DNA from: Panorpa germanica
Taxonomy: Eukaryota > Arthropoda > Insecta > Mecoptera > Panorpidae
Assembly: GCA_963678705.1 (NCBI GenBank)
Contig: OY783214.1
Coordinates: 1,488,001-1,552,000, forward strand
Length of the DNA: 64,000 bases
Direction of reading: 5' to 3'
Positions 1,426 through 60,463 of the stretch are shown piece after piece. The notes under the pieces are model-generated. The model ran no database searches. It was given only the letters and a program-made list of their open reading frames with translations, and was not told the origin of the DNA. Numbering within the stretch: position 1 is the first letter of the stretch; every line of letters begins with the position of its first letter. The position numbers were made by a program, and so were the translations under genes.

Positions 1426-1755
1426 TTATAGTATCAAGCATGTAGATCTCATTGGTGGCCGTTGAGTTACTAGGCTTTGAGCTTGATATTGAAATTTTGT
1501 AACGACTTTCTTCCTCTTTAATGTTGATTCTGTTGCAGCTTCCATTTGTTTTCGGCGAACTCTGACCGCTTTCCTTGTACTTGCAACATCAATGCGCTCG
1601 CGGAAATTCAAATAGTGAAAGAAATTTTCGTACAAGCTTATCTCGGCTACGTTGTATTCTTCAATTATATCATGTTCGTCTTTTAATTGTTCCAGGTGGG
1701 TGAACAACACGGTAAGTTTTAGATTGGGATCTCTAATGTGGTAATACAGCGTATC
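1426..1755 (-). CDS. ABCA-type terminal exon: C-terminal regulatory domain and tail
   Basis: The acceptor TTACCAG ends at 1756 and the exon runs 109 codons to a TAA. It begins [20 protein letters not shown] and continues [20 protein letters not shown] and LYENFF. This matches the conserved C-terminal pattern of ABCA proteins (a YHI strand, then a helix, then a YSVxxxSLExVF-like motif). A basic tail of about 50 residues follows, with RVRRKQ and LKRKK, ending CLIL. The tail is longer than I would expect and could include a membrane- or partner-binding signal. Confidence 0.85.
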   Translation of the reverse strand, partial: DTLYYHIRDPNLKLTVLFTHLEQLKDEHDIIEEYNVAEISLYENFFHYLNFRERIDVASTRKAVRVRRKQMEAATESTLKRKKVVTKFQYQAQSLVTQRPPMRSTCLIL

Positions 1756-2616
1756 CTGGTAAGAAAAATAAATATGTATATATATATATGCTAATGAGTG
1801 TATAACGTAGAACAGAAATACTAGTGAGCAGTGCTTATCGTACAAACTCGGCAGAAGCTGCCCAGGTAATAAGCGGAATAGTATATCTGCCACTACTGGT
1901 GAAAGAGCGAAAAAGTGTCTACCTGGAAAGAGAAGAAAAATGCTAGAAAGTAAGAAAGGAAATTAAAAAGAAATGGCCGGATGAATGGGAGAAGGATATC
2001 GGTAAGGCGGTGTGGAAAAAAAGGTTATTACGCAACATTGGTACGCGGGTAAATCGAAAATACGTAGACATTAATTATTTTATAACACAATTTCTCGAGG
2101 GACATGGATGCTTTGGGAGTTTCATGAAGTAAAAAGAGAGTTTCTTCTTAAAAAGAGAGAGTACGACATGTATTGGTACTGCATACATGTTGATACACCA
2201 AAACACCGATATCCGATGATATCACCAAAACACCGTGGCCGATGGGCGATAGAAAGTGCAGACATGTGGACGATAACGAGAACCACATTGACCGTAGATA
2301 ATATTGTTAATATTACGGAGGAAGAGGAAGAGGATTGGAATGCGGTTCGGGTCTTACTCGCGAAAATTCTGAAAACCAAAGAAGTAGACGTCAAAACAAC
2401 ACCGTAATCGAAATTCGAGTAACAAGATCTAGTTAAAAGGAATGCTATGCGGTACCAGACTGTTGTCTGGAAGAAGAGAGAGGGTGATTTAGTTGGTAAG
2501 CACTGTTCCAGTAAGGGTAAACTTATTACTACCTGGCTGGCTGTCAGGAGACAGCCTTATGAAAGATTTCTCCTCCTCACCACAAGAAATTTTAAATATG
2601 TATATATATACATATT

Positions 2617-2702
<86 letters not shown>

Positions 2703-3475: not shown

Positions 3476-3536
<61 letters not shown>

Positions 3537-6500
3537 TTTAGATTTAATGTTAATTGTGTGTGCCTTTCGGCTTTACAATCTACGGTATTCTATTTCTTAA
3601 TACATTTCATTCCTATCTTAACAATTCAGCCTTAAAACTAAACTTGCTAATTTTATTTAAAACTAATTATTTTCCTAAAACTAAACTTAATTTATTTATT
3701 AAAACTAAAAACTTATTTTAGACTTTTAGTACTTCTAAACAGTGCTTTCTGCTTCTTCTTCTCTTGACCCTCTCTCTTCATGTTCCCCATGCAAACTAGA
3801 TAACGAGCTAGCCCAGACAACTGGATTTTATATATGGACGACGGTCACTTCGCAGACAATTAAATTTACATTATTCTAGACCGTTTTATCTCCAAACGTA
3901 CTTTCTGCTTCTTCTTCTCTTGACCCTCTTCCTTCATTTTCCCTAGTCTTCCTTCTGTACTGGTCTATTCCCTAGTCTATTTTTCTGGGCTGAAGTTTAC
4001 CTGTTTCCTCGCTACTTCTTTCTTTCTCCTGCTTCCCTTCATTGCCTCTTTTAGTATTTCCTTTCTCTTTCCTAAAGTCAATTCCTTCCAGTACCAATAT
4101 TAGACGACCCTCTCATACTCCAGTATCAGGGATTCTGCCAATTCATTATTCTCCACCAGCTTCATTATTCTCCTGTTCTTCCTTTCCTTCTTACTATTTC
4201 CGCCATCCACCTCTTTCCTTCACTGCCTCCCTTTAGTAGCTGACCAATATTCCTTTCGCTCGCTACTTTTTCCTTACACTCAAACTTAATGTGCTCTAGT
4301 GTTTCGTCCTCCGCTCCGCACATTCTACACTTTCTTTCCTCACTCTTTTCCCAGTATCTGTTTCCTTTTTCCTCATTTCCCAATCTAAACCTTGCTGTTC
4401 TTCTTATGTGTTTTATGTCTTTTTCTATAAGGTACTGAGGCACATTATTTTCCCATAACCTTTTGTATCTTTTATTGTAGTTACTTTTTTCTATTTTTCC
4501 CATTCTCTCCTGCTGTTGTATCTCCTTATCCCTTCTCCTTAGCTCCTCTTCCACACTTGCGCCACCTTCTCTTCTCCTCTCTGCCTCCTCGATCGCCATT
4601 CCATTCCTTTCAAAGTACTCCTTTCTCTTTTTTGGACCCCCTCCCCCCCATTCTTTATGCTATCCTCCCTTATTTTCTTTAAAATTTTGCTTTCCGCTCT
4701 GTTCAATTTCTCCTCGTATTTTACTGCTCTTTCTCCTGTTTTAATTCGTATCTTATCCCTTTTTAACTCCTGCATCACCATGTATCCTAGCGTGCACCTG
4801 TCCAGCCCTAGTACCCATTTCATATATCTCACCTGTATTCTTTCCAACTTTTCTTGTTCCTTCCACCCCCAAACCTCTGCTCCATACAACATCATACTGG
4901 CTATCAGTCTATCAAATATCCATATTCTCTTTTGTATGTCCCCCCCAAATGCCTTTTCCCCTAGTCCCATACCCGTCGCATTGCTTGCTCTGCCTTCTTT
5001 GCTACTTCCCTTATCTGAGCCTTTTCTCCATTGTTCCTTTTAAAAGTGTAGCCCAGATATTTAAATTCTTCTACTTCCTCTATGTCCTTTGTCTTATATT
5101 TCCACCTATTATGTCTTCTTTTTTCTCCCCCTTTTTTAAATACCATAATTTTTGTCTTTTCCACATTTAACTCTATTCCTTTCCTGTTTATATATCTCCC
5201 TAGACGATGTGCCATCTCCTGCAGCTCTCCTTCCCTTTTTGCCAACAGGACTATATCGTCAGCGTATGCTAAAGTCCATATCTTGTAGTGTCTTCCTATT
5301 AGCACCTTTCCGTCTTGTCCTCTTTCCATTACCCCCTCCAAGTCTGGTGTATATATCGCAAATAAAATGGGGCTCAGAGGACAACCTTGCCTCAACCCCT
5401 TGTCTCTCCAGAATTCTTCTGATTCTTCACCCCCAACTCTTATTCTCATTCTTGTTTCTTTGTAAATTTCTTTAATACGTTCCACTATATCCTCATCTAT
5501 TTTTTTCTCTCTCATGTACTTCCACAATTTCTGTCTGTTGACCATATCAAACGCCACCTTAAGGTCGATGAACATTGCATAAATCTGTCCTCCTTTTTCC
5601 CTTAGCTCTTTTTCAACTACATGGTTCAATGCGTATATATTGTCTAAAGTCCCTCGTCCCTTTCTAAAGCCTGCTTGTGTCTCGGGAAGTATTTCTTTTA
5701 CTTTTACTTTTATCCTGTACCCTGTGTGATACCCCTGTAATTTTTGGCTTCATGCCTATTTCCCTTTTTATATATCGGCGTTATTACCCCTTCTCTCCAG
5801 CTGTCTGGCAGGTTTCCTCCTTTCCATATCTTGTTCATCGCTGTCAGTAATCCTTTCTCTATCCTTTCTTGCCCAGCTTTCCACTCCTCGTTCTTTAGTC
5901 CATCTCTACCTGGTGCTTTCTTTTCCTTGAGTTTTTGAATCTGTGTTTTTACTTCCTGTAGTTCTATTTCGTTTACTTTCTCCTTCTCTTTTATCCCCTT
6001 CTTTGTCTTCTCGTTTCTTTTCTTTCCTTCTAGTACTCCCATAAAGTGTTTTGTCCACTCTTCCATTTTTATTTCCTTGCTTGGCTCTTTCCTTCGCTTT
6101 TTCTCCCTATTTATGTAATCCCATACCTGCCTCTCCGTTGTTATCTCTCTAATTTCTTTTTCTATTCCTATTTTGAACTTATTCTTTTTATCTTTTATCT
6201 TCTCTTTATATTCTCTCTGCTTCCTCTTGAAGTCTTCTTTACTTAATTCTCCTTTCTTCCATCTCTTTAGTTCCCTTTTTACCTCTTTTTTTCCATTCTT
6301 TACACTCTTTATCCCACCATTTGTTTTCTCTTGTTCTATCAGATATTCTCCACCTTTTACCTCGGGTTGCTTCCTTCATCCTCTCTTCAATTTCCTTCAT
6401 CTCCTCCGTTTCTCCTTCTTCCTCGTATCTCCGTTCCAATTCCTCTATAAACTTCTTCCTTCCTTCCTCCGTCCAATCGCTGCCCTCTTTCCATTCGTTT

Positions 6501-8164
6501 CCCTTTCTTACACCTCTCCTCGCCTCCAACTCCACCCCAAGCGGTAGGTGATCCGAGTCCACCCTTTTTTCCACTTTCATTCTTTATACCTTCTGTCCTC
6601 CTCCCAGCGTTGTCACCACGTAGTGGATTACTGTATCCCCTCTGCTTCCCACATAGGTATATTCTCCTTCTTCATCTCCTTCCTTGTTCCCATTTAGTAC
6701 TATCCATCCTTGTTGTTCTAGCATTTCCATTAGTTCTTTTCCCTCGGCGTTTATTGTTTTGTCTTTCGTTGTTCTTTTCTTTTTTCTGTTCCCCCATATT
6801 TCGTCCACCTCTCCCAACTCCTCAATTCTCGCGTTAAAATCCCATCCAATTAATAAGTTTTCTTTTATATTACCTTTACTGTATATTGTTACTATTTCCC
6901 ATGTCTCTTCTTCCAGTTTTATCGTCCTCCTTACTGCTGTTTCTTTTCTGTCTGGTACCTCTTCCTCTTTTAGCTCCCTACGTACACCCATTATATTTCC
7001 ACCTCTTGCTCTCCATTTCTTATGCTCTCTAACAGCACCTTGGCACACCCAGCTGTAGTTTTTCGGTAGTTTGTCTTCCCATTCTTTGCTTTCCTGCCAT
7101 GTTTCTACCATCCCAATCACATCCCAACCTTTGATGTATCTCCAGAAATCCTTATCTTTTCTTTTTATACCCGCCACGTTCCAGAAACCTATCTTTATCC
7201 TCTTTTTTATTTCTCTTCTTTCCTCTCTCCCCCTGTTACCACTTTCTTTACTTTAACCCAACTCCTTCACCATTTTTTCGAAATTCCCCCTTTTCCAGTT
7301 TTTTGTTTTATTCGTTCCATATATACTGCGTTCCTTCACACCATACTTTCTTGTAACCGACCTTCACATCCTTTTTCCCCTCCTCTCTTTTCTTTTTTGC
7401 CCACTGCCTCAGTTGCCACTGCACTTCTCTCCCTTTATATGTTAAGTCCTCTTCTATCTACACATCCCACCGTGAACGCTTAAGTTATTTTTACTTCTTC
7501 CTTCAATTCTTTTAGTATCTATTCTTCCACTTCTTTTCTCAGTTCCGCGCCCATTTTGCTTGTTTTTACACCCCTTATTACTATATTCTCCCTCTTCTCG
7601 CGCTTCCTGGCTATTTCCTGTCCTTTTTCCAGCTCCTCCACCTTTTCTCTAACTTCTTTCTCTGTTTCTTCCTTTTTCTTTTCTTCTTCTTTCCTTTCTT
7701 CTTTTTCCTCTTCCTTCTCTTTTTCCAACCTCCTCATCAGATCTTCCCTTTCCTTGCGCGATTCTTCGATGAATGTCTTGAATTCTTCTTCCATCTATTT
7801 TAATCTCTCCCTCATTTCCTTCATTTCTTCTTGCATTTCTTTTTCTGTTTGTATCATCGTTTTGATTTTTTCCTCTGTTCCGTCCTCCTTCTTCTCATCC
7901 TGCTCCCTCCTCGTCTTCATTCCCCCCGGCATTATTTTTTTTCTCACCACGTCACCTATTGTTATTTGTTCAATTCTTTTTTTTTGTTATTTTATGTAAA
8001 TAACTTCTTATGAAACTATTTCTTTGCACTAGAAATAACAAATCCCACAACAAAAAAACCGAACCTTTTGTTTTTTACTGAACAATAGCAACAAGTATTT
8101 TTTTCACAATTTTAAATCTGCAAGCGATTTTCGGAACCCGTCCTCACTGCAGCACGATCAAACT

Positions 8165-8243
<79 letters not shown>

Positions 8244-11200
8244 CTACATACAACTTAGCGGCGAGTGTGCGTTGCAAATATCCTCTTCAGCTTCTAATGT
8301 CAAAGGATACAAGTTTGTATGGGCGTAATAGCGAGGGATGAGCGAAATCTGGGCTCCGGAACCTTCTCTGACGCGAAAGGTATAAATTTTTAGGTGCGAA
8401 CGGGGAATAAAGGTAGGAAGTATGATTTCTTCTACATACGTGTCGCATCACGCCTGCGACTAGGGTTCTTTTTAATTATAGAGCGGAGAAATGTTTATCA
8501 CTATTCTGTCGTTGTAACTTAATAAATAAAGAATAGTCACACTATTTACAGACTTAATTTATTAACACAAAAAACAATTTACAACTATTTACAATTTCAA
8601 TTGAGTACTTTATTGCACTTGTTCCGGTTGACTGTTTATTACTAACTGACTCACTGTCGCGGCCAGAACTACGACGCGGTCCTCTGGTCCCTTTTATACC
8701 ATAGAGTGACGTAGCAGAATACTCGAAATCCGTGATTTTCCGGAATAATTTTATGAAGTGGCCTTTAGAAGTGCGCAGGATAAATATTTCCAGAAACCAC
8801 GCGTGAATAAAATATGCGTGATATGCATTTCTTTACAAATTGTTTATCTTTTAACATTCAAAAACTACGCGTAATAAAATCTTATAAACCTAAATAAACA
8901 ACCTTGTTTATCATATCGCCGAGATATTTGTACAGGGGTATGTAACCTTTTCTGCTAATTCCGGATAATATTTCACAACTATAATATTTCTATGCTCAGA
9001 TGCCCTCTTATTTGCAACAATATATATATAAATAAATAAATATATATGTGGGGTTATTTTTTAAGATAGATTAATTTTAAGTTAAGTTATATTTAGTTTT
9101 AAGAAATAGCAATAAGAAAACTGTAACATAGGTTAAGATCTTGGATAAGAACGGGGGTTATATTTAAATGTGTAAATAAACCAGAGACAGACACTAAAAA
9201 CCGTTCAATGGTTAATGCTTAGCCGTTCACTTTTGATGTCGAGCGTACGTCTCAGAGAACGTGGCATATGCAACTGTTCGCTAACTTTTGAACGTGGTGC
9301 GACATGTTTTGGGCGAGGCAGAATATAAAGATTGTTTTATGTGTACAGAGAGTTTTATAAAGCAAATGGCGATAGAAATATGTAAAGATTATGTATGGTC
9401 GTTATTGAGTGTTTTATAATTAAGTTAACTTTATTACGGTGTAATAATTGTTATTTTGATCATTGTTTTTGTTAGAGTTAGGCAGCAATATTAATGTTTT
9501 AGTACTAAGGTGTATTTTCATTGAAATTATTGTGCTGATAACTATAGACAATTACAACTGCGTATTATGTATTGAGACGTAAAACATTGTGAAAAGACAT
9601 TTTAATCTAGTGTATTTTGTTGTGAATATAATTAAGATTGATTAACTTTATTTAGATATAAGTTTATGACTTTGATAAGTGATTAAACAAACTATTAATA
9701 ACCAAATTAAGTGTTTACTCATTTTAAAAGAAACTATATTGTTGTATTGTACATCAACCTTAGGCTGATGTTAATTGTAACTTATAATTGTGGGAAAATA
9801 CCTACAAATTGGGGGCTCAACCGGGATGTGTGCAGAGTCAAAACCTACAGATTATGATCTCAACAGATGGTTAGAGATAATGTCTACAAATTGTGAGCTA
9901 TCAATAGTGATTGAATAGTTATAGGCAGCATAATAGAATCGCAACACGTGGTTGTTAATTCTAACCTGCAAAGCGGAGTCTGTACCGAGATGGGAATGGA
10001 TTCAAAAACTACTAATGTAGATTAAAAACCTACAATTTTGGGGGCTCAACCGGGATATCCGTGGATGGTTAGGGGGTCCACCTACAAATTGGGGGCTCAG
10101 AACCGGGATAAGGGCGAAACCAAGTATATTTAGTCAAAAATATATTTAACCTTAGAACCAGACTAATTGATCAGAACCGGGATAAGAGCGAAACCAAGTA
10201 TATTTAGTCAAAAATATATTTAACCTTAGAACCAGACTAATTGATCAGAACCGGGTTAAGGGCGAAACCAAGTATATTTAGTCAAAAATATATTTAACCT
10301 TAGATCCAGACTTATTGATCAGCGGAATCAAGAGGAAAACTGAAAATTATAACCATGACACAAGAATTGGACAATTTGTCAGTGGCAGAGCTACGACAAG
10401 AACTCAATTTTGTTGGACTCAGTCAGCGTGGGAATCGTGCAGAATTATTGTCAAGAATGAACTCATTCAATAGCCGTGTCGGTGAACAGAATAGGTCTGT
10501 AAACAATGAAACAGTCAATAAAACTAATTATACATTTTTAGATTTAGAATTGGCTTTACCTAAATATGATGGGCTTAAAAATGTCAGATTGTGGATTAAA
10601 CAATTTGATGATTTCTGTGACCAGGCAGAAATAGATACAAAATACAGATATTTGTATGCCAGGAGATTGTTGACTGATACCGCAAAACAATTTGTTAATT
10701 TCGAAACCAGGATAATAAATTGGGATACATTTAAATCGTATTTGATTGATGAATTTGATACGAGTTTGAATAGCGCACAGGTTCACAAAATGCTTCAACA
10801 AAGGGTGAAGAAGCCAGCTGAAAGTATCCGTCAATATGTGTATGATATTTTAGATATAGCTAGACAAGCAGACGTCGAAGAAGCAGCTATTATGGATTAT
10901 ATCATAGCAGGAATTCGCGACAGTGCAGCCAACAAGGTAATACTTTATGGAGCTGAGAATATTGGACAACTTAGACGTAAGCTGGAACAATATGAAAAAA
11001 TGAAAATGGATACCCAGGACTATGATAGGAGATCTAGGTCAGGTACCAAAACTAAAATCGAGACAACAGGTGAGAAGATTAAATGTTTTAATTGTGGTTC
11101 GATGTCACACTCATCTAAGGTGTGTCCCGATAAAGACAAGGGTTATAAATGTTTTAATTGTGGTAATTATGGACATATTAGCCGAAATTGTAATACTAAA

Positions 11201-14200
11201 ATAAAAACTGTTAAAGCGGAACATAATGTTATGAAAGTTGAAATGATAAAATCAATTTGTGTTAATAACGGGAGTAATGTAAATGCTTTAATAGACACTG
11301 GCAGTGATTTGTCAGCAGTGCGGGAAGATTATTTTAAAACATTAAAGAATGTTAAATTATATGACTCTGAAATAACAATACGTGGTTTATCAAACTCAAG
11401 AGTAAATTCTATAGGTAGAATTGAATTGGACATTGAAATTGATTCAGAACCTTACGTGGGTTATTTTGAGGTGTTGCCATCTCATGCAATGCATATGAAC
11501 ATGGTGATAGGATTGGACATTATAGCTAAAGCTAAAGTAGTTATTGATAAAACCGGGGTTACATTTCATAAACTTTATAGCGATAAAGATGTAGATGAAA
11601 GTGAGGTTAAACAATTAATGACAATGAAAATAGACTATGGTGATAAAGAAAGTGAATTAGATTTATCTCATATAAACGATAAAAATGTTGTTAATAAAAT
11701 ACACGAGTTGGTGAACAACTACAAACCAAAAGAGTATTATAACTCTGAAATTCAAATGACAATTACGTTGAAAAATGATACTCCTATATTTTCTAGATCG
11801 CTTAAACTACCACCTGCAGATCGACTAGTTGTTGAGGAGCAGCGGGGTGAAGGGTCAGAAAAGGATGTCATACAGGCAGCCCAGGAAATGATCGACCTAG
11901 GTTGTGCCGTGAAACAAGGCAATGTTCGTCCCTCTAAGGATAAGGTAAACGCAGCTAAGCATTTTCCGAAGCCGAAGAAGACGCAACACGCAAAGAATTA
12001 TACCAGGGAGTGTATAATAGAAAATGAATTGAAGATTGGAGTTAAAATGAAAACCAATCAAGACACTGTTCGTTCCTCGAAGGATAAGGATGAAGCCATT
12101 AAGCATTTTCCGAAGCCGAAGGAGAGGGTACAAGCAGCAGAAATACAAAATGAGTTTGTAGAAAAACGCAAGAAGCTGAGAGAAGAGGATAAAGGAATTA
12201 TTCTAGAAATTCAGCAAGAAAACAGGACTAGCTACAGTAGAAGGTGTAAGACAACAAGCAAAAAGTATAAACATATTCTCGTTAAAGTAAATGCTTTTAC
12301 AAAGTTTGTTTGGTTGTTACCTACTAAAGCAACAGGAGCTAAAGCTAAAACCAAAGGCCCATACAAAATAACGAGAATTAAAGGAAATGATCGTTATGAC
12401 GTGGAGGAAGCAGGAGAGTATAAAGGGCCAGACAGGACTTCTACATCTGCAGACAAGATGACATCAAGGGGCAAGAATGATGTAGCAACTGAGGACAGTT
12501 ACTAGTCAGGAATGGGCCGAGATGTGGGGTTATTTTTTAAGATAGATTAATTTTAAGTTAAGTTATATTTAGTTTTAAGAAATAGCAATAAGAAAACTGT
12601 AACATAGGTTAAGATCTTAGATAAGAACGGGGGTTATATTTAAATGTGTAAATAAACCAGAGACAGACACTAAAAACCGTTCAATGGTTAATGCTTAGCC
12701 GTTCACTTTTGATGTCGAGCGTACGTCTCAGAGAACGTGGCATATGCAACTGTTCGCTAACTTTTGAACGTGGTGCGACATGTTTTGGGCGAGGCAGAAT
12801 ATAAAGATTGTTTTATGTGTACAGAGAGTTTTATAAAGCAAATGGCGATAGAAATATGTAAAGATTATGTATGGTCGTTATTGAGTGTTTTATAATTAAG
12901 TTAACTTTATTACGGTGTAATAATTGTTATTTTGATCATTGTTTTTGTTAGAGTTAGGCGGCAATATTAATGTTTTAGTACTAAGGTGTATTTTCATTAA
13001 AATTATTGTGCTGATAACTATAGACAATTACAACTGCGTATTATGTATTGAGACGTAAAACATTGTGAAAAGACATTTTAATCTAGTGTATTTTGTTGTG
13101 AATATAATTAAGATTGATTAACTTTATTTAGATATAAGTTTATGACTTTGATAAGTGATTAAACAAACTATTAATAACCAAATTAAGTGTTTACTCATTT
13201 TAAAAGAAACTATATTGTTGTATTGTACATCAACCTTAGGCTGATGTTAATTGTAACTTATAATTGTGGGAAAATACCTACATATATATATATATACAGG
13301 GTGTCTCAAAATTCAACGATAAGCCGGCACCAGAAGGTGGTCCTGCTCATGACTACACAAGAAAAAAAAAAAAAAATTTTTATCTCATTTTGTTTAGGAA
13401 TTAGAAAAAAAATAATTTTTTTTCGAAAATTGAAACACCTTAAGATGTTTTTAACTACCATGACCACAATTTTTCAAATATTTCTGAATTTTTTTTTGTA
13501 TCGGCAACCTAAATAGCACTGCTATCCATCACAACCATTAAAACTCCCAGAATGCTAGTAGTTTCCTTCCTACACGCACTTGCAAGTTTGTAAGCTTTGG
13601 TGTCAGAAGCTGTAGAAAATAGCTGCACCTCGTCAAATTTGTAAATTTGATATTAGTACTTGTTTTTAATATGATATTCAAATATTACACAATCCAAAAT
13701 TTAAGCTTTCTCCAATGTTTCTTACTGGTCTCCTAATTTTCTCAGCGTCCCTTTTATAAAATTTGGAATATATATGCAAAATACACATGCAAAATTTCAC
13801 CTTTCTCTCTTTTACGAATAAAAGGTTATACAGCAAAAAACAGCCTAACTTTTTTTTAGTTTTTCCAAAATTGCCGGTTTCCTGGAAATTCAGAGAAAAA
13901 TCCAGGGACGCCAAAAACCTTAGAATTTTTTTCTCTACGAAATAGGAAATTTTTAGAAACTTTAAGCAACTAAACAAATAAGAATATAAACATATAAAAA
14001 TGTAAGAATACTAGAGTTTACCCCGTCGCAAGCGACGACTGTCTTTTGTATTTGAATTGAATTACATTTCAAATTCTAATTCCATCTTTAAATTAAAATA
14101 TTTAATTTAACTCGTTCTATATTAATTTTATTTATAAAAACAAATAAATTTTCAATATAAACTGACTAAAAAAATATATATATTTTAACAAAATAAAAAC

Positions 14201-17200
14201 TATTTTCAATATATTCGTCATTTGACCAACTTTTTTTCAAAATTTGGTACCAAAGTTAGCTGATATACAAAATTTTAACTTTCCTAAACAATTTTTACCC
14301 CCGGCAAAATCCGTCCCCGTGCTCCCAAATAAAATTTTTTAATTTGAAATTATTTTTTTTAATATGATGTTTAACTATTATATAATCTAAAATTTTAGTT
14401 TTCTTTAAAGTTTCTTACCGGGCCCCTTAATATTCTCTGCGCCCCTTTATTATAATTTCGAATTTATAAATTTTGAAATATGTTCATAATTAAGAACATA
14501 ATACATGCAGAATTTCATTTGTCTAAACGAATACAAAGTTATATGGCAAAAAGGGTTCATTGTTTTTTCCAGCTTTTTCAATATAACGGTTTTCTAAGAA
14601 ATTGAATGAAAAATCCAAGGACGCCAAAAATTTTACAATTCTTTTATCTACGAAATAGGCAATTTTTAAAAACATTGATGAAGCCGTTTTCCAGCTACCA
14701 TACAAAATTCTCTACCAAACATATAAGAATATAAGATCATAACAGTTTACATCGAGTCTTCTTGGTGAGCGCACGTATTTACAATAAACAAAACAATAAA
14801 ATAAATAGTGATCTTTTTTTTTGCAAATTATAATATTTTTTTTTTCGTGATTTTTTTTTTTTTAAATTATAATTTATATTATTATTAAGTGTTATTAATT
14901 AGAAGTGAAGTAACTTCTATTTAATTATCACTGGTTAATTAACAATATGGATATGGAGGTTGAACCTCCCGATAAAAATCCGATCAATAAAAACAACTCT
15001 GTGACTAACAAAACAATTCCTACAGATAAAACATCCAGTGATATAACAGAAAACTTAAATAACAATAGTGACAATGTTAAAAAAATATTTAATAATTTAT
15101 ACAACACAGAAACAAAATATGACTCGTATAAAGTAATGATAGTTAAAAATAATAGTGATGGAAATACATTTTTTAGTTCTCTTAAATTAGCAGAAATAAT
15201 ATGTAAAATTAGCAATAAATCTAATATAATAGAAATTAAAAAAGTGGGAAGAAATAGAGTAATCGTTCAATGTGATAATGCAGTACTAGCTAACGAAATT
15301 ACCAAATCAACATTGCTGAAAAACAATGGGTATGAAGCGTTTATCCCATTTTACTGGTGCACAAAAGTTGCTATTATAAAAGGTGTTGATATTGAATATT
15401 CGGAAGATACAATTTTAAATAATATAGAGTGTCCACCTTTTAAAGTAACGAGAGTGCAAAGGTTAAATCGAAAACTAAGAGTTGACGGAGCTATTAAATA
15501 TGAACCCAGTACAACAGTGAAATTATTCTTTGAAGGACTTGCTATTCCTGCTTATGTTTACATGTGGAGAGTGAGACGAGCATGTGAAACATTTGTACAA
15601 CAGACGATACAATGTTATAATTGTTTTAAATTTGGACATGCAGCCACAAAATGTAGAGCAAAAGTAGCAAAATGTAAATTCTGCGGAAGTGAAGATCATT
15701 TACGTACTGCATGCACATCTCCTAATCCGACATGCATAAATTGTAAACTTAACCACGAGGCTACAGACAATGAATGTCCTGAAAAAAAAAGACAAATCAA
15801 GATAAAAGATCTCATGGCCCAACACAATCTCAGTTTTTATGAAGCAAAATTAGAATTAACAGAAAAAAATACAGACTATTTATACTCAGTAAGAACTCAA
15901 AACTCTTTTGAAGCTCTAAACTACAATGAGACTTTTCCCAATATCACTAATAAATACAATAGTATCAACATAATTCCAACATACAAACCAAACCCTTTAA
16001 CCAGAAGAACTAATACCAGAGTGAATAAATCAAATACAGGTAACTCGTTACAAAGATCTTACAGTCAACCACAACCTACGACATCCACTAAAGAACCAAT
16101 TCCAAAAAGAAGAAGAGAAGAAAAGAAACCTAACAATGAAGAAAGCGACACATACCTTAAGATAACTAATCAAGGAAAAAACAGAAAGCAAATCAACCAA
16201 GAGACACCTGATATTACAATGGAAAACAATGATAATGATACCTGCTATACATCAATATATAATAAAAATAATGATGACAAAATTAAAAATACAAACAAAG
16301 ACCCAAATATTACATCCCAATCCCTTAGAAGCTACAAGAAACAAATATCTAGTGTACAATGGTCAAACTCGTAAGAAAACATCGATATATAAATTAAGTT
16401 TATTTTTTAAAAATCTATTCACATCACTAAACCTAATCGTTTAATAAATTTACTAAAATATTAAATCAACAATAATTATATAAACGGAGAGAAAATAAAA
16501 TAAAATAAAATATATAAATAAATCTAACAACAAGACCAAGGACAGATATAAAAATTAATCATTAATTAAAACAGTTAAAATGATAAATTTTATTCAATGG
16601 AATTGCAGAGGAGTCAGATATATTAAAGAGGAACTACAACATATGTTACAGAAGCATAACATACATATATGCATACTATCAGAAACGTTTTTAACAAAAA
16701 ATATCAATTTCAACATCAAAGGTTATTTTATTGAAAGAGAAGATAGGATACAGAATACAAACTATAATCCCCACGGGGGTGTTGCTATCTTGATTCATAA
16801 ATCTATAAAATATAAAAGAGTAATGCTAAATAACCCATTTAATTCGGTCGAAATAGTTGGAATAATTTTAACACATAACGAAACTGATGTAATATGTATT
16901 TTATCAATCTATGCTAAACCGAATCATAAACTATCTAATTCTAATTGGTCACAGATAAAACAACAAATAGATGTTCCTGTTATACTTGCTGGAGATTTTA
17001 ACGCGACTAATCTTGTTTGGGATATAAATTGTCCAGGTAGTCAGTATGAAGGTAACGAATTGTTAGATTTCATAGAAAACGAAAATCTAAATATTATCAA
17101 CGATGATAAACCAACTAGAGTAAGCAATCTCAGTACAAGGGACAGTATATTGGATCTCACATTGGTATCAATGACTTTAACACAACAAATTACTTCGTGG

Positions 17201-20200
17201 CAAGTTCTTGCAGATAGCTTAGGTAGTGATCACTACCCAATTTTTTTCTGTTTGAATGACTATAATAAAGACCGTTACCGTACATCTGAATATTTAACGA
17301 GGAGAAATTTCCGAAAAGCAGATTGGGAGAAATATAGCCTTGAAATAGAAAGCAGAATTTCAAACCTTAGCACAAATGGAATCACAAGTAATCCCCAAGA
17401 TGTTGAAAACAAATACAACCAATTTAGAGATGTTATTAATAATTCGGCAGACATACATATCCCATCTACCAGATTGTATAATATAACTCCTAATAAAATA
17501 AAACCGTCTTGGTGGGACACTGAGTGCAATAAAATGATAGCTCAAAGAAAATTAGCACTAACTATTTTTAATAAAAACATGACAATGGCGAATTATTTAA
17601 ATTATAAAAAACATCAAGCTAAAACCAGACGATATTTTAGAGCCAGAAAAAAAATAGAATGGCAAAATTTCTGCGAGAATTTAAACCCAAACACAACAAC
17701 CAACATTGTCTGGAATAATATAAGAAAAATTAACAATAAAAGCTATAGTACTAAAAGGATAAGTGATAATGAAAATTTAATAGAAGAATTCATTAAAAAA
17801 AAATTTCCACAGAACAACAATTTAAATATTACTACCACCACCATCGTAAAAGATAATTTTCTAGATAATAACATAAATAAAAATGAAGTAAAATTCGCGT
17901 TAAATCATAATAAAAACAGTAGCACAGGATTTGATAGAATAAATTACAAAATGATACAAAACTTACCTGACAATGCAATAAATCATCTTACACAAATATA
18001 CAATCTGTCATTAAACACTGCTGATATACCATTAGACTGGAAAAAACATATCGTTGTTCCTATATTAAAAACAGGAAAAGATCCAAACAAAGAAGAATCA
18101 TTCAGACCAATTACTTTACTATCATGTATGGGCAAAACTATGGAATCCATCATCAAAAACAGACTGGAGTGGTATCTCGAACATCATAAAAGATTACCTG
18201 AGTTACAATTTGCGTTTAGAAAAACAAGAAGTACACAGCATAACTTAAACATATTGAATATCGATATTCAAAGAACATACAGTAAAAATCATTATATGAT
18301 AGCTGCTTTCATTGACATTGAAGCTGCTTATGACAATGTTAATCTAAAAATATTAAAAGAAAAAGTAGAAAACATAGGTATATCTTCCAAAATATCCAAC
18401 TGGATTATAAACTACTTCCAAAATAGAGAAATAACAGTTAGATACAATAATAAGTTAACTGGTCCTATACTATGTAATCACGGAATTCCACAAGGCTCAA
18501 TATTATCTCCATTATTATTCAACATATACACAGAAAAGTTAACAACATTATCAGATAACAACACAACAGTACTGATGTATGCAGATGACATGGTTATTTA
18601 TAGTATGGGTCATACACAAGATATAGCTCAAAACAGATTACAATCGAAATTAAGAAAACTAGATATTTTATTAAAGGAAATCAAATTAAATATATCGTCA
18701 GAAAAAAGTAAAATAGTTATATTTACAAGGCATAGAATAAACTGCAGTCCAAAAATAACCTTCAGAAATAAAAATATAACTGTTACTTCAAATACCAAAT
18801 TTCTGGGTATATTCTTTGATACGAAAAGCACTTGGGCGAAAGAAATTGCACATATTATTAACAAATGTCAAAAAGGCTTAAATTTGATGCGATGTATAGC
18901 AGGATACAAATGGGGCGCACACCCAACAACCTTAATAAAAATATATAAAGCTATTGTTAGACCGCATATTGACTATTCTAGTACTATGATCTGCACCGCA
19001 AATAACTCAAGATTAAAAAAAATTGAAATTATACAAAACAAATGTTTAAGAATAATATTAGGTGCAATGGTTTCAACACCAATCCAAATCCTCAACTATC
19101 AAACTAATATTCCTCCGGTAAATATCAGAATACAACAAATATCAGACAGTTTCTTTTGTAAAAACAGACATAACTCATGTGGCCCCTTAAATACAAGATT
19201 ATCTAAACTATATGTTCTTTATAATAAACCATATTGGACAACTCATAAAAAACCGGCACTTTTAACTAGTTTTGATAGATATAATAACTTGAACTTAGAG
19301 GTACACAACATTATACCTTTTTTCAAATTTCCATTAGAAATAAGCATGACAACAATACATACAGAAATAAATTTGTTCAAGAAGAATGACAGTAAGGAAA
19401 TAACTTATCAAAAATATATGGAATATATAACAAAAGATGATATAAACTGGAGTATATGGTTTACCGATGGTTCATTCGAAAAAAACACTAGGACTGGAGG
19501 AATTGGCATTTTCAATTATAATACAGATCAACAGTACAAATACAAACTTAACAACATCACAAATTCTTATAATACAGAAATAACAGCAATTATGAAATTA
19601 CTAGAAATAATACAAAAAACTGACAATAAAAATATATTAATCTTCACAGATTCTCGTAGTGTTTGTGTATCTTTAAATAACAATAAATTCAAAAACAATA
19701 ATAATAACAAAATATGTTCAATTAAAGAATATCTTTTAAAAATGGAAAAAAATGATATCAATGTTAAACTTATTTGGATTCCTGGACATGTAGGCATAAA
19801 AGGAAACGAAATGGCTGACAAACTGGCCAAAGAAGCTTGTGTAGATGGGGAAATAATCGAAATAAATTGGTCAATAAATGATTCCAAAAAAATAATTAAA
19901 GAAAATTGTATGGCAGAATGGCAGAATATATATAATGAGAAAAGTCAAAGTACTGGAAAATTTTTTTTTGCAGCGAATCAAAAAATTCCAACAACCACAT
20001 GGTTTAATAAAAATCATTCACGGAGATATATTTCAACAAATTGTCGAATGAAATCTGGGCATTCTAGATGTCCAGCTCATCTATACAAAATAAATATAAA
20101 AGACACACCAAATTGTAGATGTGGAGAAGAAGGGTCTTTGGACCATATAATTCTAGGGTGTCATCTTTTAACATCAAAAATTGATAGACTTTTAAATGAT

Positions 20201-44200: not shown

Positions 44201-47200
44201 GGTCTGGTCACTTATTTCTGACGACATAATTTAGTTAATTGTAATAAGTTGAGTTAATAGTATTAACAATTGTAAAATAACGTTATTATTTGTTATGTTA
44301 GGTAGACCGTTACGAAGATTATAAAGTCTTAAGAAGACCTTGAATTGAATTAAAAAGTATCAATAGAAAAACCTTTTTTTAATAAACATTATTCGATTTC
44401 GCTTATGTGTGTTAGTAAATATTACATGTTTTGTTTTTAGCGGGATTTGATTAAATTATGATAGCATACCGTAAAGACGATTATATGTCCAATTAGAGCT
44501 GCTAACATATGAAGACTATTTGGAAACCGTAGAATCAAGTAGAAAGCACTGCAGCCTCCAGTAAGACATCCAGATTCTGAAATATAAAAAAAATTAATAT
44601 TAATAAATAAATTTTCAGAAAATTGAAAAATAAATAAAGTAATATTATGAGATCATTTTTAAAATGGAAAATAGTGTTGTCATATCAGTTGTCTTTGACT
44701 TCTGATTTTAATTGTAGTCTGATTTCATTTCGACTGGGTCCATAATCCAAAAATTAGATGTTGATTATTCAGATGTATTATTTTTTTAAATATCTGGTTT
44801 AAAAGACATTCTATACTCTTCAAACAATAGCTTTTTTTATTATTTATCAATTAGCAACTTTTATTACTATATTTCATAACAAACAATACTAGGGACCATC
44901 TATTCACATCCTCATAATTTCCTCCTAATTTTTAGGTTTGTTTTTACATTAATTTTATATTTGTCACTGTTTTTCAAAAGCTTTATTCTTCCAGTAAATG
45001 GTTGATCAAGCATTTTCTTATTTCTTTGGCAAGGGTCTGTATCTGGAATTATCAAGGATGCTTTATTTTGAAAACGTTGAATTACTTATATGTTTGTCTT
45101 CTTTGTGCATCCCCATTCATTATAGACCAGGGTCGATAATTTTAGAAACGAAAAAAAATTAAAGTAGGATAAAACCTATTGGAAAAGGAAGGGAATACCA
45201 CTAAAATGAAAGGAAAAATAAATTACGGTCGATCTGTGGTTGGGAAGGGGTAGGAGGTGAGTTTTTAAGGGTAAAAATCGGTAAATCTCGATTTCCGGCA
45301 AAACTACAAGTCCTATCGAAAAAAGTTAAATGGCAAAGTTGTAGAAAATAAAAAGATCTACAACTTTTGTATCTATACTTTTTCTCCAAAACCTCAAAAT
45401 TTATGTGAAAAATCCAAAAAACCGCATTTTTGATTTTTTATTTTTATCTTTTACAAGAAATTTTTCTTTTCATTATATTTGGTGAAAACTTATCTCTTTA
45501 TGTCCCAAATACACTTAAGATTTAAAATATTAATTTTTTCACCCTATTTTGACTCGATATCGAAAAAGCACCCTAATTTTCAATCGAAAATTCTCACGTC
45601 AAAATATCTTATTTTTCAAAAAAGTCGGTGGGCTTTTTGTTCGTTGAAATCTCTATTTTCTGATGGTGTAAAAAAAAAATATACATTACTATGGAAAATT
45701 TTTTTAGAAAATGCAAAAAATCGAAAAATACTAAAATTCGAATTTTTTTTTTAATCTTCAAGACCATCACCGTCTTCGTCTCCAACATTATTTTCGGTCT
45801 GCATTGGTTCTTCATCCGCAATTTCATCTGAATCATTAACTTCCTCGTAGATTTTTTTCTCCACATTGGCGCATTGTTCAGAACCATGACAATTTGAGCA
45901 TAAATTTGTGCATTTTAAACCATGTTTTCGGCAGCCACATTTTAAAGTATTACATCCAGTTTCACAGCTGCAGCAAATAGTTTTCAGCAATTTTTCCGGA
46001 ATTAATTCTATTTCTGTAAATTTGGGCATAATTCCATGTTGATGTTGCTTCCAGCCCCAATCTGTTGCTGTCAATTCATTACCCAGCCACGTTTGAAGCT
46101 AATAATATGCCCTGTAACAATGTTGTTCTGCTGCACCTTCTGTGGGTGGGAGATTTGCCAATATGAAAGATGATTTAATTTTTGCAATTGATATTTTAGA
46201 AATCTTAATTGATTCAGTGTTATATTATCCTTTTTACATTTATAAATAGATTTAATTAATTTTAATCCATATTTTTTTATATCTTCTTTTAAATCTCTTT
46301 TTTTAAAAATTGACAAATTTGACAAATTTTGATTGTCTAATAATGAATTTACGATAGTTTTCTTTCCTTTTCCGGCAAATCCAGATGTTCTGTCGCAACC
46401 AGAAAAACAATGCAGAAATACAACGATGTTTTTGACGGATTCACATTTGAAACTATTAGACGTGAAAAAAAGATCTTTTATATTATTAACTTTGTTAACT
46501 TATTTAGCTGTTAATTATAGTTGCGGCTTGTTAATCGATTTGCAATTTTTTGTTTATTAATCTAACATGGAACCTAACGTTTTTCGAGTAATTAAAGTAA
46601 AAATTTTAATGAATACCTCAAAATTGTACATAAAGATTAAAAAAAAAATTTCGAATTTTAGTATTTTTCGTTTTTTTGCATTTTCTGAAAAATTTTTCCA
46701 TAGTAATGTATATTTTTTTTTACACCATCAGAAAATAGAGATTTCAACGAACAAAAAGCCCACCGACTTTTTTTAAAAATCAGATATTATGACGTGAGAA
46801 TTTTCGATTGAAAATTAGGGTGCTTTTTCGATATCGAGTCAAAATAGGGTAAACAAATTAATATTTTAAATCTTCAAAATTCCAGTGTGTTTGGGACATA
46901 AAGAGGTAAGTTTTCACCAAATATCATGAAAAAAAAAATTTTTTTGTAAAAGATAAAATAAAGAATCAAAAATGTGGTTTTCTGGATTTTTTACATGAAT
47001 TTTGAGGTTATGGAGAAAAAATGTTAATACAAAAGTTGTAGATCTTTTTATTATCTATAACTTTGTTATTTAACTTTTTTCGATAGGACTTGTAGTTTTG
47101 CCGGAAATCGAGATTTACCGATTTTTACCCTTAAAAACTCACCCCCTACCCCTTCCCAACCGCAGATCGACCGTAATTTATTTTTCCTTTCATTTTAGTA

Positions 47201-50180: not shown

Positions 50181-50213
<33 letters not shown>

Positions 50214-53200
50214 TATAAAAGAAAGACGGGTTTGTTACAACACTTATAACTCGAGATCTGCTGAACCAATATTCATGGTTATTGATTCGTTGGATTTGTC
50301 TCCGCCCCGAATAGCATAATACATCTTAAAAACAATGAAAATATATAAAACAAAGACGGGTTTGTTACAACACTTATAACTCGAGATCTGCTGAACCAAT
50401 ATTCATGGTTATTGATTCGTTGGATTTGTCTCCGCCCCGAATAGCATAATACATCTTAAAAACAATGAAAACTCGATATGTGTAATGAATACTTAATCAT
50501 TTCAATAAATGCTGATTTCATGTCAAACATTTGTTGTCCAATCCAGTCAAATACTGTAACAACTATTCATGTGTGCGTTCAGAAATTTATTTTTTGTAAA
50601 ATGTGTCGAAAGTTCAGGTACTGTTATATTTGTTTGTTTTAGACATTAATTTGTGTAAATTATTTATTAATTATTTAATTTTTAATTTCAGAAAATAATA
50701 CCTAAGATTTATTGTACAGGTTAACAAAAGTGTAAATGTCTTTTTATAGGTTATCTATAACTATAATTTTTCTTGATAAGCTATTCATATGTAGTGGTTA
50801 TATACTCTTTGAGCTATTGACTATGTCTCGAAAGTGGTTTTTTGTGGTTTTATGCGAGTGCACCTTCAGTATTAATATTAATAACAATGCCGCGTCCTAG
50901 AAGATCTAATCTTTCCCAGCGGAGCCGTAATGCAATTAGGCAACGGAATATCGCGAGTCAATTATCTGATGAAGAACGAGAAATTGCTCAAGAAATTCCG
51001 ATCTTGAGGTGAATGAGGAGATGCATAACCAGATTTTGCTCTTGATCGAAGATATGTGTTACCTCATGTGCGGCAGTTTGTAAGTTAGGTTAGGAATGCC
51101 AGCGCCAGATCGCGGAATGAATGACGCATTTAATAGAGAATTGGAACGTGAACGTGAATATGATCAACATGAACTAATCCAATCAGTCCAAACGAATGTA
51201 CCTCTGTTGAATCCTAAGCAGAGGGAAGTCTATGATACACTGATTAATGCAATTGATGATGGAAATGGCGGCTTATTTTTTTTGGATGCCCCCGGTGGAA
51301 CTGTGAAGACATTCCTCATGTCATTGATTTTGGCCACTGTACGTGCGAGATCCGAAATTGCGGTAGCAATTTCTTCTTCTGGAATAGCGGCCACATTGTT
51401 AGACGGATGCTGTACGGCTCACTCAGCGTTAAAATTGCCATTAAACCTTCAAACTACTGAACAACCGACATGTAACATTTCGAAACACTCCGCAATGGCC
51501 AAAGTTTTAGTAGCATCAAAAATCAACATATGGGACGAATGCACAATGGCACAAGCACTAGACCGAACATTAAAAGATCTGCGCAATGACTCGAGATGTT
51601 TTGGCCAATGATTTTATTATCTGGCGATTTCCGACAAACACTACCAGTCATTCCAAGATCTACTGCTGCCGACGAAATAAACGCTTGCCTCAAAGCATCA
51701 AATCTGTGGCGATATGTAAAGAAACTTCAACTGTTTGTAAATATGAGAGTTGCATTGTTGAACGATCTATCTGCTGATGATTTCTCGAAGCAATTGCTGA
51801 CTATCGGTAATGGCCGTGTTCCTGTTGACAAATCGAGCGGTTTGATTTAATTTCCTCCAAATGTTTGCAATTTTGTATCATCAAAAGACGAGCTTATCAA
51901 CAAAGTATTCCCGGATATCATTGCTAACCACAAAAATACTAAATGGTTAAGTGAGCGAGCAATTTTGGCCGCTAAAAATAAAGATGTAGATGACCTCAAT
52001 TTTATAATTCAAAATCAAATCGTAGGTACTCTGTATTCATTCAAATCTATCGACTGTGTAACAAACGAAGAAGAAGCCAGTAATTATCCAAGTGAATTTT
52101 TAAACTCCTTGGATGTGCCTGGTTTACCACCGCACAATTTAAAACTTAAGGTTGGCTCGGTAGTCATCATGCTTAGAAATTTAAACCAACCAAAACTGTG
52201 CAATGGAACGCGTTTGGTCATAAAAAAACTGATGAGCAATGTGATTCACGCGTCCATACCTAAAGGAAAATTTAAAGATGAGGAAGTTCTTATTCCAAGG
52301 ATTCCGATGATCCCAATGGATATGCCATTTGAGTTTAAACGAATTCAATTCCCGATTCGTCTTGCCTTCGCCATGACGATCAACAACTCACAGGGCCAAT
52401 CCTTTACTATTTGTGGCCTCAATCTAGAAAAAGGATGTTTTTCTCATGGTCAATTGTACGTGGCATGCTCACGTGTCGGCAAACCATCCGCTTTATTTGT
52501 TCTTGCGCCTGACCAAAAAACAAAGAATGTCGTTTACCACAAGGTGCTTGAATGAAAATCCCATTATTGAATTAATCCGAGTGTATTCCAATCTGCACAA
52601 CATAGTTTTCAATCATTTTTTTCTGACATGAGTTTGAATTACTTAATTATTATTATTTTTTTAATTTTTATTCTCATTCTGTATGTTTTCATCATCATTC
52701 ATCATAATAAAATACTTTTATGTTTCTATCTATATTAATAAATATTATTTTGTATCATTGTATTACGTTCATCAAAGCCTAAATTAGTTCAGCTAAAAGG
52801 TACCACGACATTAAAAATAATGATAGTGCGGAATTTAATTCTATGCGAAGCACATTGGATATGGAAAATTAAGGTATATTACTTACATAATTAAAAAAAC
52901 AAATACCCATATTTTAAACAATAAAAAAATATAATTATACAAAAAAAGAAATCTTAAAATTACATCTAAAAAAAGGTTACAAAAAAATCGTAAATTTATT
53001 AGGCCTCTCAGAGAAGGTGGAAGTGTTAAAAGTTTATAGTTTTACTTTCTGTTGCAGTTATTGTTTTGTGTTATAGAGTTTCGAAATAGGAATTTTTTCT
53101 TCCCCATTGGGTTTTTGCGTTTTTATACTCTTTTGCAATCCTTCATTTACGCATTTCTGTTTTTGCTGATTTCTTTTCTTATATTTTATTTATAACAAAC

Positions 53201-56200: not shown

Positions 56201-59200
56201 GTAACATTATAAGAAAAAAATTGACCTGAATCAATAAACATATACCGCGTAATTAAGAAAAAACCGTGTATTACGAGTACTTAGTCAAACATCTAATTTC
56301 CTTAAACAATTACGAAATAAAATTTCTTCTGCAACTTACCACAGCAATCATACTCCATTGTCGTATTAAACACAGCATACTTGCAGTCCACGACAGGTCT
56401 CAGTGTTTCACAATCACCATACAGAGCTTGTTGTTGTTGTAGTTGTAACATGCTCAAACAAAGAATATATATGGGAGACATGTGCCAAAGTAAATGATAA
56501 TAATAAAAACTAGTTGTAGTCAAGTCTTCTGTTTCATACTTGTGCGTATTAATGTAGTCATCCCAGAAATACACCACTGCACAATCACCTATAATAAAAT
56601 TTGGCTTTCATGTTATGTTAATGTTTTAAATTAAAAATATATTATTCAAAGGTAAAGTATTATACACATTTAAGGTAAACGACTTATCTAACCGTTTAAG
56701 GCGATCCTACCGTGCAACAAATTTAAAAATATTTTATTTGATAAATTGTTTCTATAATACGTCTTAAATACATAAAATACACATGTGAAAAATAAGAAAG
56801 TCATCACATTATGTTGACACGATTCCGGTAAAGTAGAGAGTAGTCTGCAGGTGGAGACCATCGCCGAAAAAGTAAAAAGATATGCTGCCAAACAACATGC
56901 CATTGCACTGTCATCCGAATGACGAGATACTCCAACTGTTTGTGAACCAAACGTTAACTGGAAAGCTTAAGGCGAAGAAACCATTGGAGCTTCAATGACA
57001 ATCGTAATAGTAATGTAAAAATTAAAGTATTAATATTGTAAATTTAGGAGTGGTAAGAGAGGGAAGTAAAGATATATGCTATTTCTTAAACAATTGCTGG
57101 TTGGTATGTATTTATTTTATAAATAAAATCAGTTCCCATTTTTAAATACGGGTAAACTACTATTTTTATATCTAAGCATATTTCGAAATATTAATTTAGA
57201 TAGTAAATTAAACAATAAATTTTACGTAAATATTGAAAGAAATTAACGAAGAAATTCGATTTTTTTATAAATTCAATAATTATATTTCAAATTTTAATGT
57301 GTAAGAAGCTAACATATCGCAAGGTGACGGTTGTTAATTATCTTTTATTTAAGTTTTATAAATAAATTCAAAGTTCCATTTATAAATTAAAATATTTTAC
57401 TTGAATATTTAAGGCGGCTAACACAATAAGCGATACATGTCTTACCGCTATTTTACGGGCTAATCTCGCACACGGTATCTGCATGCTGACGGCATTTTAT
57501 GCCATTATATGTCAGAAAGTCAGATTGGTAACATGTCATCTTGTGATTCAAGTGATGAACATATTATTCTAATATATAATTATTTAAGAACAAAACGAAG
57601 AGAAAGGAAATAATGGATTCACCCCTATATATTTTTTTTTTATTATATTATTATATACGATTATATATTATTTTTATTTTATTTATTTATCTTCAGCTTT
57701 CCATTAAAAGTTTATTTGAATACTCCGGCAAATTATAATTATATATTATAAGATTTATCTCTAATTCTTTCAATAGTTTTAACTCAGCCATCTTGTACAA
57801 AAACAAATATCAAATGACAAATGTCAAAACAAATCAGTTTGCACAATGCAGTTTAAAAACTTTGAACGCGTTTTTCAAGAAACTTTGTTTTTTAAATCTC
57901 TGTCCACTATAATTAAAAAATTACTTTATGGATATTGATGAAATTTTTACAGCTTATTAAAAGCATTAAAAACTTATTTTTATTTAAAGGTATTCATTTA
58001 TGTTGAAAATTTTGATACTTTTTTAACATGCTTTTGCTTTTTACTTGCAAATGCTTTTTTATTCGCAAATATGAGTAAACTGTCAAACACTATTTTCGGA
58101 ATTAACAATTTAATTCGTTTCAGTTGTCAATTCGTCAAGTATGGCTCTCTATCTTTTTAAAATACCCGTTTACAAGGAGATGAATTATTATCCTAATGCA
58201 ATTTCTTAGTTTTCTTGGTTAATTATCCTCCTCTATCAAAACGCACTCGCCATCCAGATCCGTGGCGATCTGCTTCCAAATGCACACGGAATGAATCTAA
58301 TTCTTCTACTGGATGTCACTATTTTGAGAACTATTTTGCCTTTACCTAATATTCTTCTTATAAAATTTCATCATTTATCTCTCCCCGCCTCAAAATTACA
58401 CTTCAGAAAATGTTGTATTATTTTGGTTATTAATATTTCATTGTAAATTTAAATTTCAGCTTTGCATCTAGAACTGAAGTAAAATTATAAATTGCAGCGA
58501 TCCATTTTATTCGGATCCAAAAATACATATATAAATTATAGCTCTTTCTCTATTTATTCGATACTTCTTGTTCTTGAGTACCAGTCCCCGCCGCTATAGC
58601 AATTTTGGTGTTTTTTCAGGGTGGCCACAATCCTGGCAAACCTTGAAATGCGGGAATTATCAGGGAATTTAATGCAACCGCAAAATATCATGGAAATATC
58701 AGTAAATTTCAAAAAGTATCAAGAAATTTGATCTTTTATTTATAGCATATTATAGTTCACTTAAAATTCAAAATTCATGAAAACCGGAACTCAGATATAT
58801 AATAAATACAAAGGTTTGCTCTCATGTTAAAGTATGCTAGTGCAAAACTACTCCAATACCTCCTACTGTACTTTTCAAGTTTGAATTGGCGTGCTATCGT
58901 TGTCACGAGATTTGTGTGTTGGTATGTATTGTGACACACACATGTAAAGAACCCAGGTCTCTGAGCACTAGCTGCTTAAATAAATCGCTATAGGCCTGTC
59001 TCAGTATGGGACCGTATTTAAGCGAATTTCTGCCGGACGTATACGGGCTACTACGCTTTACCTATCCGAACCATGTAAATGTAATGAGATCGCTCTGGAG
59101 CTCTCAGACTGCACGCTACAAAGCAGTCCGAATACGGGCGGCACTACCTCGCACATTAGAAGCGTATAAAGGCGAATTTTAACCAAGTGTTACCACTACT

Positions 59201-60463: not shown

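Follow-up and report, generated by a model that had tools for sequence, protein, structure and literature searches.

The ten exons placed in the window, the 64,000-base stretch of DNA analysed here (C11:1488001-1552000), are probably the 3' part of an ABCA gene that spans at least 208 kb and belongs to a set of four recently arisen sisters; its product would have lost its ATPase and been kept for another role. A probability of about 0.77 is assigned to this reading, taken jointly for the extent of the gene, its four amplified sisters and the dead ATPase. If true, it would provide a conserved ABC 'pseudoenzyme' in a subfamily best known for ATP-driven lipid transport, and the same genome would offer four young copies and an older, compact relative for comparison. 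The family also illustrates that four sisters can come to differ widely in intron length without damage to exons or splice sites; annotation easily misses or splits genes of this kind.

Exon structure of the window gene

All ten exons lie on the minus strand, from 60463 down to 1426 (Table 1), and measure, from 5' to 3', 123, 249, 107, 142, 98, 286, 211, 162, 67 and 330 bases. The introns between them, in the same order, are 3752, 11763, 733, 4873, 60, 100, 16903, 178 and 18901 bases long, in agreement with the sizes of 18.9, 16.9, 11.8 and 4.9 kb given for four of them in the sequence-only reading. That reading had also proposed ten exons with nine in-phase junctions, and the proposal stands: every intron is of the GT-AG type (9/9), phase is kept throughout (9/9), and the joined exons yield 591 codons followed by TAA. 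The first exon joins in phase 1 to an exon outside the window (79299-79084, encoding TM8), which itself ends in phase 1 before GTAAAT. Two of the middle exons, 44576-44470 and 43736-43595, were pointed to by a compact homologous gene on another contig, C16, and candidate middle exons at 56225-56108, 56042-55975 and ~50540 were ruled out by phase failure. The last six exons recur with identical bounds in three other copies of the gene, and the donor of exon 38278..38563, GTTAGT, is identical in all four. A possible polyadenylation signal lies 52 bases beyond the stop. Searches for RNA genes gave no Rfam match at gathering score and no tRNA with ARAGORN.

Table 1. Location of exons, mobile-element remnants and gene copies. 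Locations are in window coordinates unless a contig is named; C16 denotes the compact relative.
Feature	Location	Strand	Basis or remark
Possible polyadenylation signal, AATAAA	1369..1374	-	sequence only
Last exon: R2 region and tail, stop TAA	1426..1755	-	in-phase join, ABCA3 match
LINE-type fragment, last intron	4961..7252	-	reverse transcriptase 4961-5749; weak sub-cut-off endonuclease 6584-7252
LTR-type element, last intron	9046..13282	+	terminal repeats and one ORF
LINE with two long ORFs, last intron	14914..20308	+	second ORF domains
R2 regulatory region exon	20657..20723	-	in-phase join, sister copies
NBD2 end exon	20902..21063	-	in-phase join, ABCA3 match
Endonuclease ORF	32113-32544	+	Pfam
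NBD2 exon: altered signature TSDLRKLN, LLDDP not LDEP, LTTG for switch His	37967..38177	-	alignment
NBD2 exon with GATNSGKS and altered Q-loop (YCPY)	38278..38563	-	join and alignment
NBD2 start exon	38624..38721	-	100% identical in 3 sister copies
TMD2-NBD2 linker exon	43595..43736	-	C16 homologue: same exon, AG/GT bounds
Last TM helix region exon	44470..44576	-	C16 homologue: same exon, AG/GT bounds
PIF1-helicase ORFs, 11.8 kb intron	51084..52555	+	Pfam
TMD2 exon	56340..56588	-	in-phase join; C16 homologue E 1e-8
TMD2 helices exon (first in window)	60341..60463	-	C16 homologue 46% identical, E 4e-8
TM8 exon	79.3 kb (79299-79084)	-	C16 guide
TM7 exon	115.8 kb	-	C16 guide
R1 exon	124.0 kb	-	C16 guide, tblastn
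NBD1 exons	163.0 to 129.0 kb	-	C16 guide, tblastn
TM6 exon	182.0 kb	-	C16 guide
TM5 exon	190.0 kb	-	C16 guide
TM3-4 exon	190.7 kb	-	C16 guide
TM2 exon	210.2 kb	-	C16 guide
Sister P1	C11:1149114-1356687	-	208 kb, outermost matches
Window gene	C11:1489426-1698233	-	209 kb, outermost matches
Sister P2	C11:1936927-2100205	-	163 kb, outermost matches
Sister P3	C11:2211709-2454633	+	243 kb, outermost matches
Compact relative	C16:3642914-3666519	-	24 kb, outermost matches

Identification as an ABCA gene

When the NBD2+R2 protein, a query of 384 residues that includes one extra residue at one junction, was compared with solved proteins, ABCA3 was the top match (E 5.8e-57) and, with ABCA4, ABCA1 and ABCA7, made up the best matches among the best 60 of 275 sequences at E<=0.001. 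The TMD1-NBD1-R1 protein assembled from exons upstream of the window matches ABCA3 in one stretch, chain residues 315-861, at E 6e-69. ABCA3, ABCA1, ABCA4 and ABCA7 occupy the first 13 rows in both comparisons, of the best 60 of 275 in the one and of all 48 in the other. TMD2 alone returned 11 PDB sequences at E<=1, all of them ABCA1, ABCA4 or ABCA7, and because even the best is weak (ABCA1, E 0.0018), the transmembrane part is taken to have diverged.

In Pfam, the ABC_tran profile was found at 1.3e-17 with the one-residue-longer NBD2+R2 query and at 4.3e-17 with the corrected join. Once exon 79299-79084 was added to the corrected join, ABC_tran scored 63.4 bits in NBD2 (cut-off 25) and ABC2_membrane_3 scored 33.4 bits in TMD2 (cut-off 31.6), which makes the Pfam check proposed earlier positive. 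The first two TMD exons of the window gave no ABC match in a query that ended in a misplaced short piece. All scores of the TMD1-NBD1-R1 protein fall below their cut-offs, namely R1_ABCA1 (23.6 bits; 27), ABC_tran (21.8; 25) and ABC2_membrane_3 (10; 31.6). The ABC_tran cut-off is thus passed by NBD2 but not by NBD1, although NBD1 aligns with the NBD1 of ABCA3 and ABCA4 despite its low score. These matches confirm that the window gene is ABCA-type, and the suggestion that its joined exons read as an ABCA C-terminal half is upheld.

Extension beyond the window

The flanks examined extend 160 kb upstream of the window and 20 kb downstream of it. Patterns for canonical NBD motifs returned nothing convincing upstream because NBD1 is degenerate. 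A tblastn search with the NBD1 and NBD2 sequences of ABCA3 located exons of NBD1 and R1 at ~160.3, 131.3, 129.2 and 124.0 kb, on the strand of the window exons, and the compact relative, in a 40 kb stretch of C16, served as a guide for placing the upstream exons. Twelve consecutive exons from 190739 to 123656 keep phase at 11 of 11 junctions, have GT-AG introns throughout and encode 555 codons without a stop. In-phase joining leaves out three intervals: 210 to 190.7 kb (TM2 to TM3-4), 123.7 to 115.8 kb, and 115.6 to 79.3 kb (ECD2). Between its outermost matches the window gene is traced over 208.8 kb, from 1426 to 210,233. Exons for each part of the ABCA layout TMD1-NBD1-R1-TMD2-NBD2-R2 occur in order on one strand, with the first exons and parts of ECD2 outside the chain; a short candidate extracellular-domain exon at ~221.6 kb is common to the window copy, P1 and the C16 gene. 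The sequence-only reading had recognised a single ABCA-type gene spread over 59 kb. One gene it appears to be, but the span was too small, those 59 kb being probably the 3' part of a much larger gene, itself one of four.

Sister copies and the compact relative

The genome assembly searched comprises 464 Mb in 249 contigs, of which the contig carrying the window, C11, is 17 Mb long. A search with the NBD2+R2 protein (71 matches, E<=1) recovered four sets of near-identical exons on C11, at 67-100% identity per exon match, and a single set on C16, at 62-81% identity plus a short match of 46% at E 0.41. A query made of N-terminal exons found the same four C11 loci (53 matches scored); the TM2 exon of P2 is absent from those matches, and among these 53 best candidates the first two C16 exons have no C11 match at E<=0.1. 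There are thus four colinear sister genes, traced over 163-243 kb each, inside 1.3 Mb of one contig. Their introns differ greatly, the last one measuring 18.9 kb in the window gene against about 6 kb in P1, 1.1 kb in P2 and 17.5 kb in P3. In P1-P3, six NBD2/R2 exons are intact in frame, length and AG/GT bounds (18/18), as are six TMD/NBD1 exons (18/18). Upstream of the compact C16 gene are two long ORFs that look C2H2 zinc-finger-like by eye (positions 1949-3004 and 11197-12765 of the 40 kb stretch, read in gene orientation).

Degenerate ATP sites

The degeneracy of both NBDs did not figure in the earlier reading and emerged from the alignment with ABCA3 by which the ATP motifs were scored. 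NBD1 has ASDECLQT for GHNGAGKT, YFKP for LDEP and LATD for LTTH, and is without SGG; both Walker A and Walker B are lost. NBD2 retains Walker A (GATNSGKS) and the Walker B Asp, and has YCPY for YCPQ, TSD for SGG, LLDDP for FLDEP and LTTG for ITSH, so that NBD2 is left without the Q-loop Gln, SGG signature, D-loop Asp and switch His, and has Asp in place of the catalytic Glu. The C16 gene shows the same losses where it is aligned, the end of its NBD1 lying outside the motif alignment: SNDECLST and FYKP in NBD1, and GATNSGKT, KSD, LLDDP and no His in NBD2. Because the degenerate motifs are common to this distant gene, their loss is old, and the frames have remained open since.

In an ABC protein each composite site combines the Walker A/B motifs of one NBD with the signature motif contributed by its partner. 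Scored for Walker A, Q, signature, Walker B Glu and switch His, neither site is complete in the window gene, and on that ground the protein is taken to be a non-hydrolysing, ABCA-fold membrane protein, the loss of ATPase activity being read from motifs.

Other ABCA genes and known systems

Several other ABCA genes are present in the genome. Two lie tail to tail at C10:11300629-11308093, and their NBD2 keeps Walker A and DEP while SGG and the switch His are absent. A gene on C12 (C12:4818500-4826500, minus strand) consists of two long open frames of 717 and 831 codons, which differ in frame and overlap by ~50 bases; it apparently lacks the many introns seen in the others, its NBD1 is near-canonical and its NBD2 degenerate. 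Three ABCA-like loci stand in tandem at C8:9309982-9360738, ~21 kb apart. In a small NBD tree of 11 rows, of which two are long branches, the C11 and C16 genes form a supported clade (100/98), with the C10 pair next to it (95/94), and the window gene pairs with P1 (92/84). Erosion of NBD2 looks the older event and that of NBD1 the newer, the C10 evidence bearing on NBD2 only.

Human ABCA3, ABCA1, ABCA4 and ABCA7 share the TMD-NBD-R-TMD-NBD-R arrangement, with continuous matches over TMD1-NBD1-R1 and NBD2-R2, whereas both NBDs of the window gene are without several catalytic motifs, and its NBD1 without Walker A/B. In ABC proteins with one degenerate ATP site the other composite site hydrolyses ATP; in the window gene, by contrast, neither is complete. 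The likeness to such proteins, of which MRP1 is an example (PMC9898250), is that loss of catalytic residues in one site is tolerated. Drosophila Eato, likewise an insect full ABCA, is reported to carry the A-loop, Walker A, Q, signature, Walker B, D and H motifs in both of its NBDs (PMC5844305).

PMC4652872 and PMC6131251 describe insect ABCA genes as many-exon, with 31 putative exons in PgABCA2, and earlier gene predictions as often inaccurate or split; the former reports that automatic annotation splits other insect ABCA genes. The lepidopteran ABCA1/ABCA2 genes are tail to tail according to the same papers, like the C10 pair; the C11 and C16 genes form a separate clade. PMC4652872 gives mRpS7 as a neighbour of the lepidopteran pair; it was not found beside the C10 pair, the three S7 matches lying on C8 and C17 and none on C10, so this synteny does not place the genome in Lepidoptera, though its genome and element types give the impression of an insect. 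In the portions of the literature covered, no description of degenerate or giant insect ABCA genes was recognised, which does not prove that none exists.

Selection and competing explanations

Nei-Gojobori estimates were made for the six pairs among the window gene, P1, P2 and P3. For NBD2+R2, dN/dS is 0.11-0.29, and over 12 exons (765 codons) it is 0.23-0.46. By part, it is 0.28-0.75 for the NBD1 exons, 0.28-0.60 for the TMD exons, 0.07-0.36 for NBD2 (exons A-C) and 0.10-0.24 for R2 and tail (last three exons). Constraint on NBD1 and TMD is thus weak in some pairs, and the stronger constraint on NBD2 and R2/tail fits a retained NBD2 role. Two disjoint pairs, window gene/P1 and P2/P3, together hold 60.5 synonymous and 57.5 nonsynonymous changes, for which neutrality is rejected at 2.7e-12, or at 1.8e-6 assuming that 30% of changes are synonymous. 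Because dS over the 12 exons is 0.054-0.103, the copies are young. Divergence between the window gene and P1 is uneven, with dS of 0.008 in the NBD2 exons (38721-37967) and 0.095 in the last exons, which may reflect gene conversion.

These values bear on the view that the four loci are a pseudogene family on its way out, whose ATP sites decayed unselected and whose introns filled with transposons for the same reason. The degeneracy of both NBDs and the heavy transposon load agree with such decay, as do the dN/dS values of up to 0.75 (NBD1) and 0.60 (TMD) in single pairs, and the NBD1 Walker A exon was found in none of the three sisters within the sister stretches examined. However, none of the 36 sister exons compared has a stop, a frameshift or a broken splice site, dN/dS is below 1 in all six pairs, and the motif losses shared with the C16 gene are old, with the reading frames still open. 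Because the sister exons are intact and dN/dS is low, drifting pseudogenes are unlikely; neither broken frames nor relaxed selection was found in the sister-exon comparison. No better placed is a working ATP-driven ABCA lipid transporter with unusual motifs: NBD2 retains GxxxxGKS and the Walker B Asp, and the C10 pair, without SGG and His, indicates that the lineage tolerates such departures in NBD2, but the absence of Walker A/B from NBD1, the loss of both signatures and the incompleteness of both composite sites make it improbable.

Slightly less probable again is that the set of four copies arose in part through misassembly, with haplotypes placed side by side. All copies lie on one 17 Mb contig, the window gene and P1 pair in the tree, and P2/P3 show the lowest dS (0.054), yet the dS range over 12 exons is high for alleles, intron sizes differ by many kb and P3 is on the other strand. 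That several separate genes or pseudogenes, two at the least, happen to lie in line and supply these exons is very improbable. Introns as long as 26 kb, filled with other elements, and three joins upstream of the window outside the in-phase stretches might suggest it, but the compact C16 gene has its exons in matching order, strand and phase, and three sister copies repeat the order; together with dN/dS this also contradicts the two ABCA-like pseudogenes considered beforehand.

The reading of one large, ATPase-dead ABCA gene with three sisters is therefore preferred, and the following course of events can be envisaged. An ABCA gene would have been amplified recently to four sisters on one contig, and transposons would have enlarged the introns, to different sizes in each copy, with exons, splice sites and frame kept. 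The protein would still fold as an ABCA, NBD2 would bind at most one nucleotide with no ATP-hydrolysis cycle, and the product might act as a non-pumping membrane protein, such as a receptor, lipid binder or regulatory partner. The fuller proposal, that an ABCA transporter turned into an ATPase-dead 'pseudo-transporter' family, amplified four-fold at ~160-240 kb each, held under purifying selection and given a non-pumping role, for instance in reception, in lipid sensing or in regulating a true ABCA partner, is tentative, somewhat short of even odds.

Transposon load and repeats

Of the 64,000 window bases, 25,007 are copied elsewhere (80+ bases, 75%+), with 353 exon bases among them, in a search space of 244 kb of the window-gene locus and 40 kb around the C16 relative. 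Ten ORFs were scanned with Pfam for transposon domains, three of them without a match, and about four or five protein-coding types can be named from these ten, which does not confirm the 'at least eight families' originally counted; the description of the introns as transposon-loaded was borne out by LINE, LTR-type and PIF1-helicase ORFs. The last of these, in the 11.8 kb intron, may be Helitron-like. The second ORF of the LINE with two long ORFs (16559-20308, plus strand) carries endonuclease, reverse transcriptase and RNase H, and the first ORF of this LINE starts again, by eye, at 63448-64000. Beside the LINE-type fragment, a further ORF (4165-4659) recurs in nearly the same form at 27335-27826, also by eye.

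The LTR-type element is bounded by two 761-base direct terminal repeats that are 99.6% alike, which suggests a recent arrival. Its ORF (10319-12505, plus strand) has a zinc knuckle and SAP over cut-off, with gag and protease below it, and no reverse transcriptase of this element was found among the scanned ORFs. A 74-base tandem repeat lies within the element at 10097-10322, and elsewhere in the window a 130-base unit at 50210-50471 is repeated twice with a 99% match.
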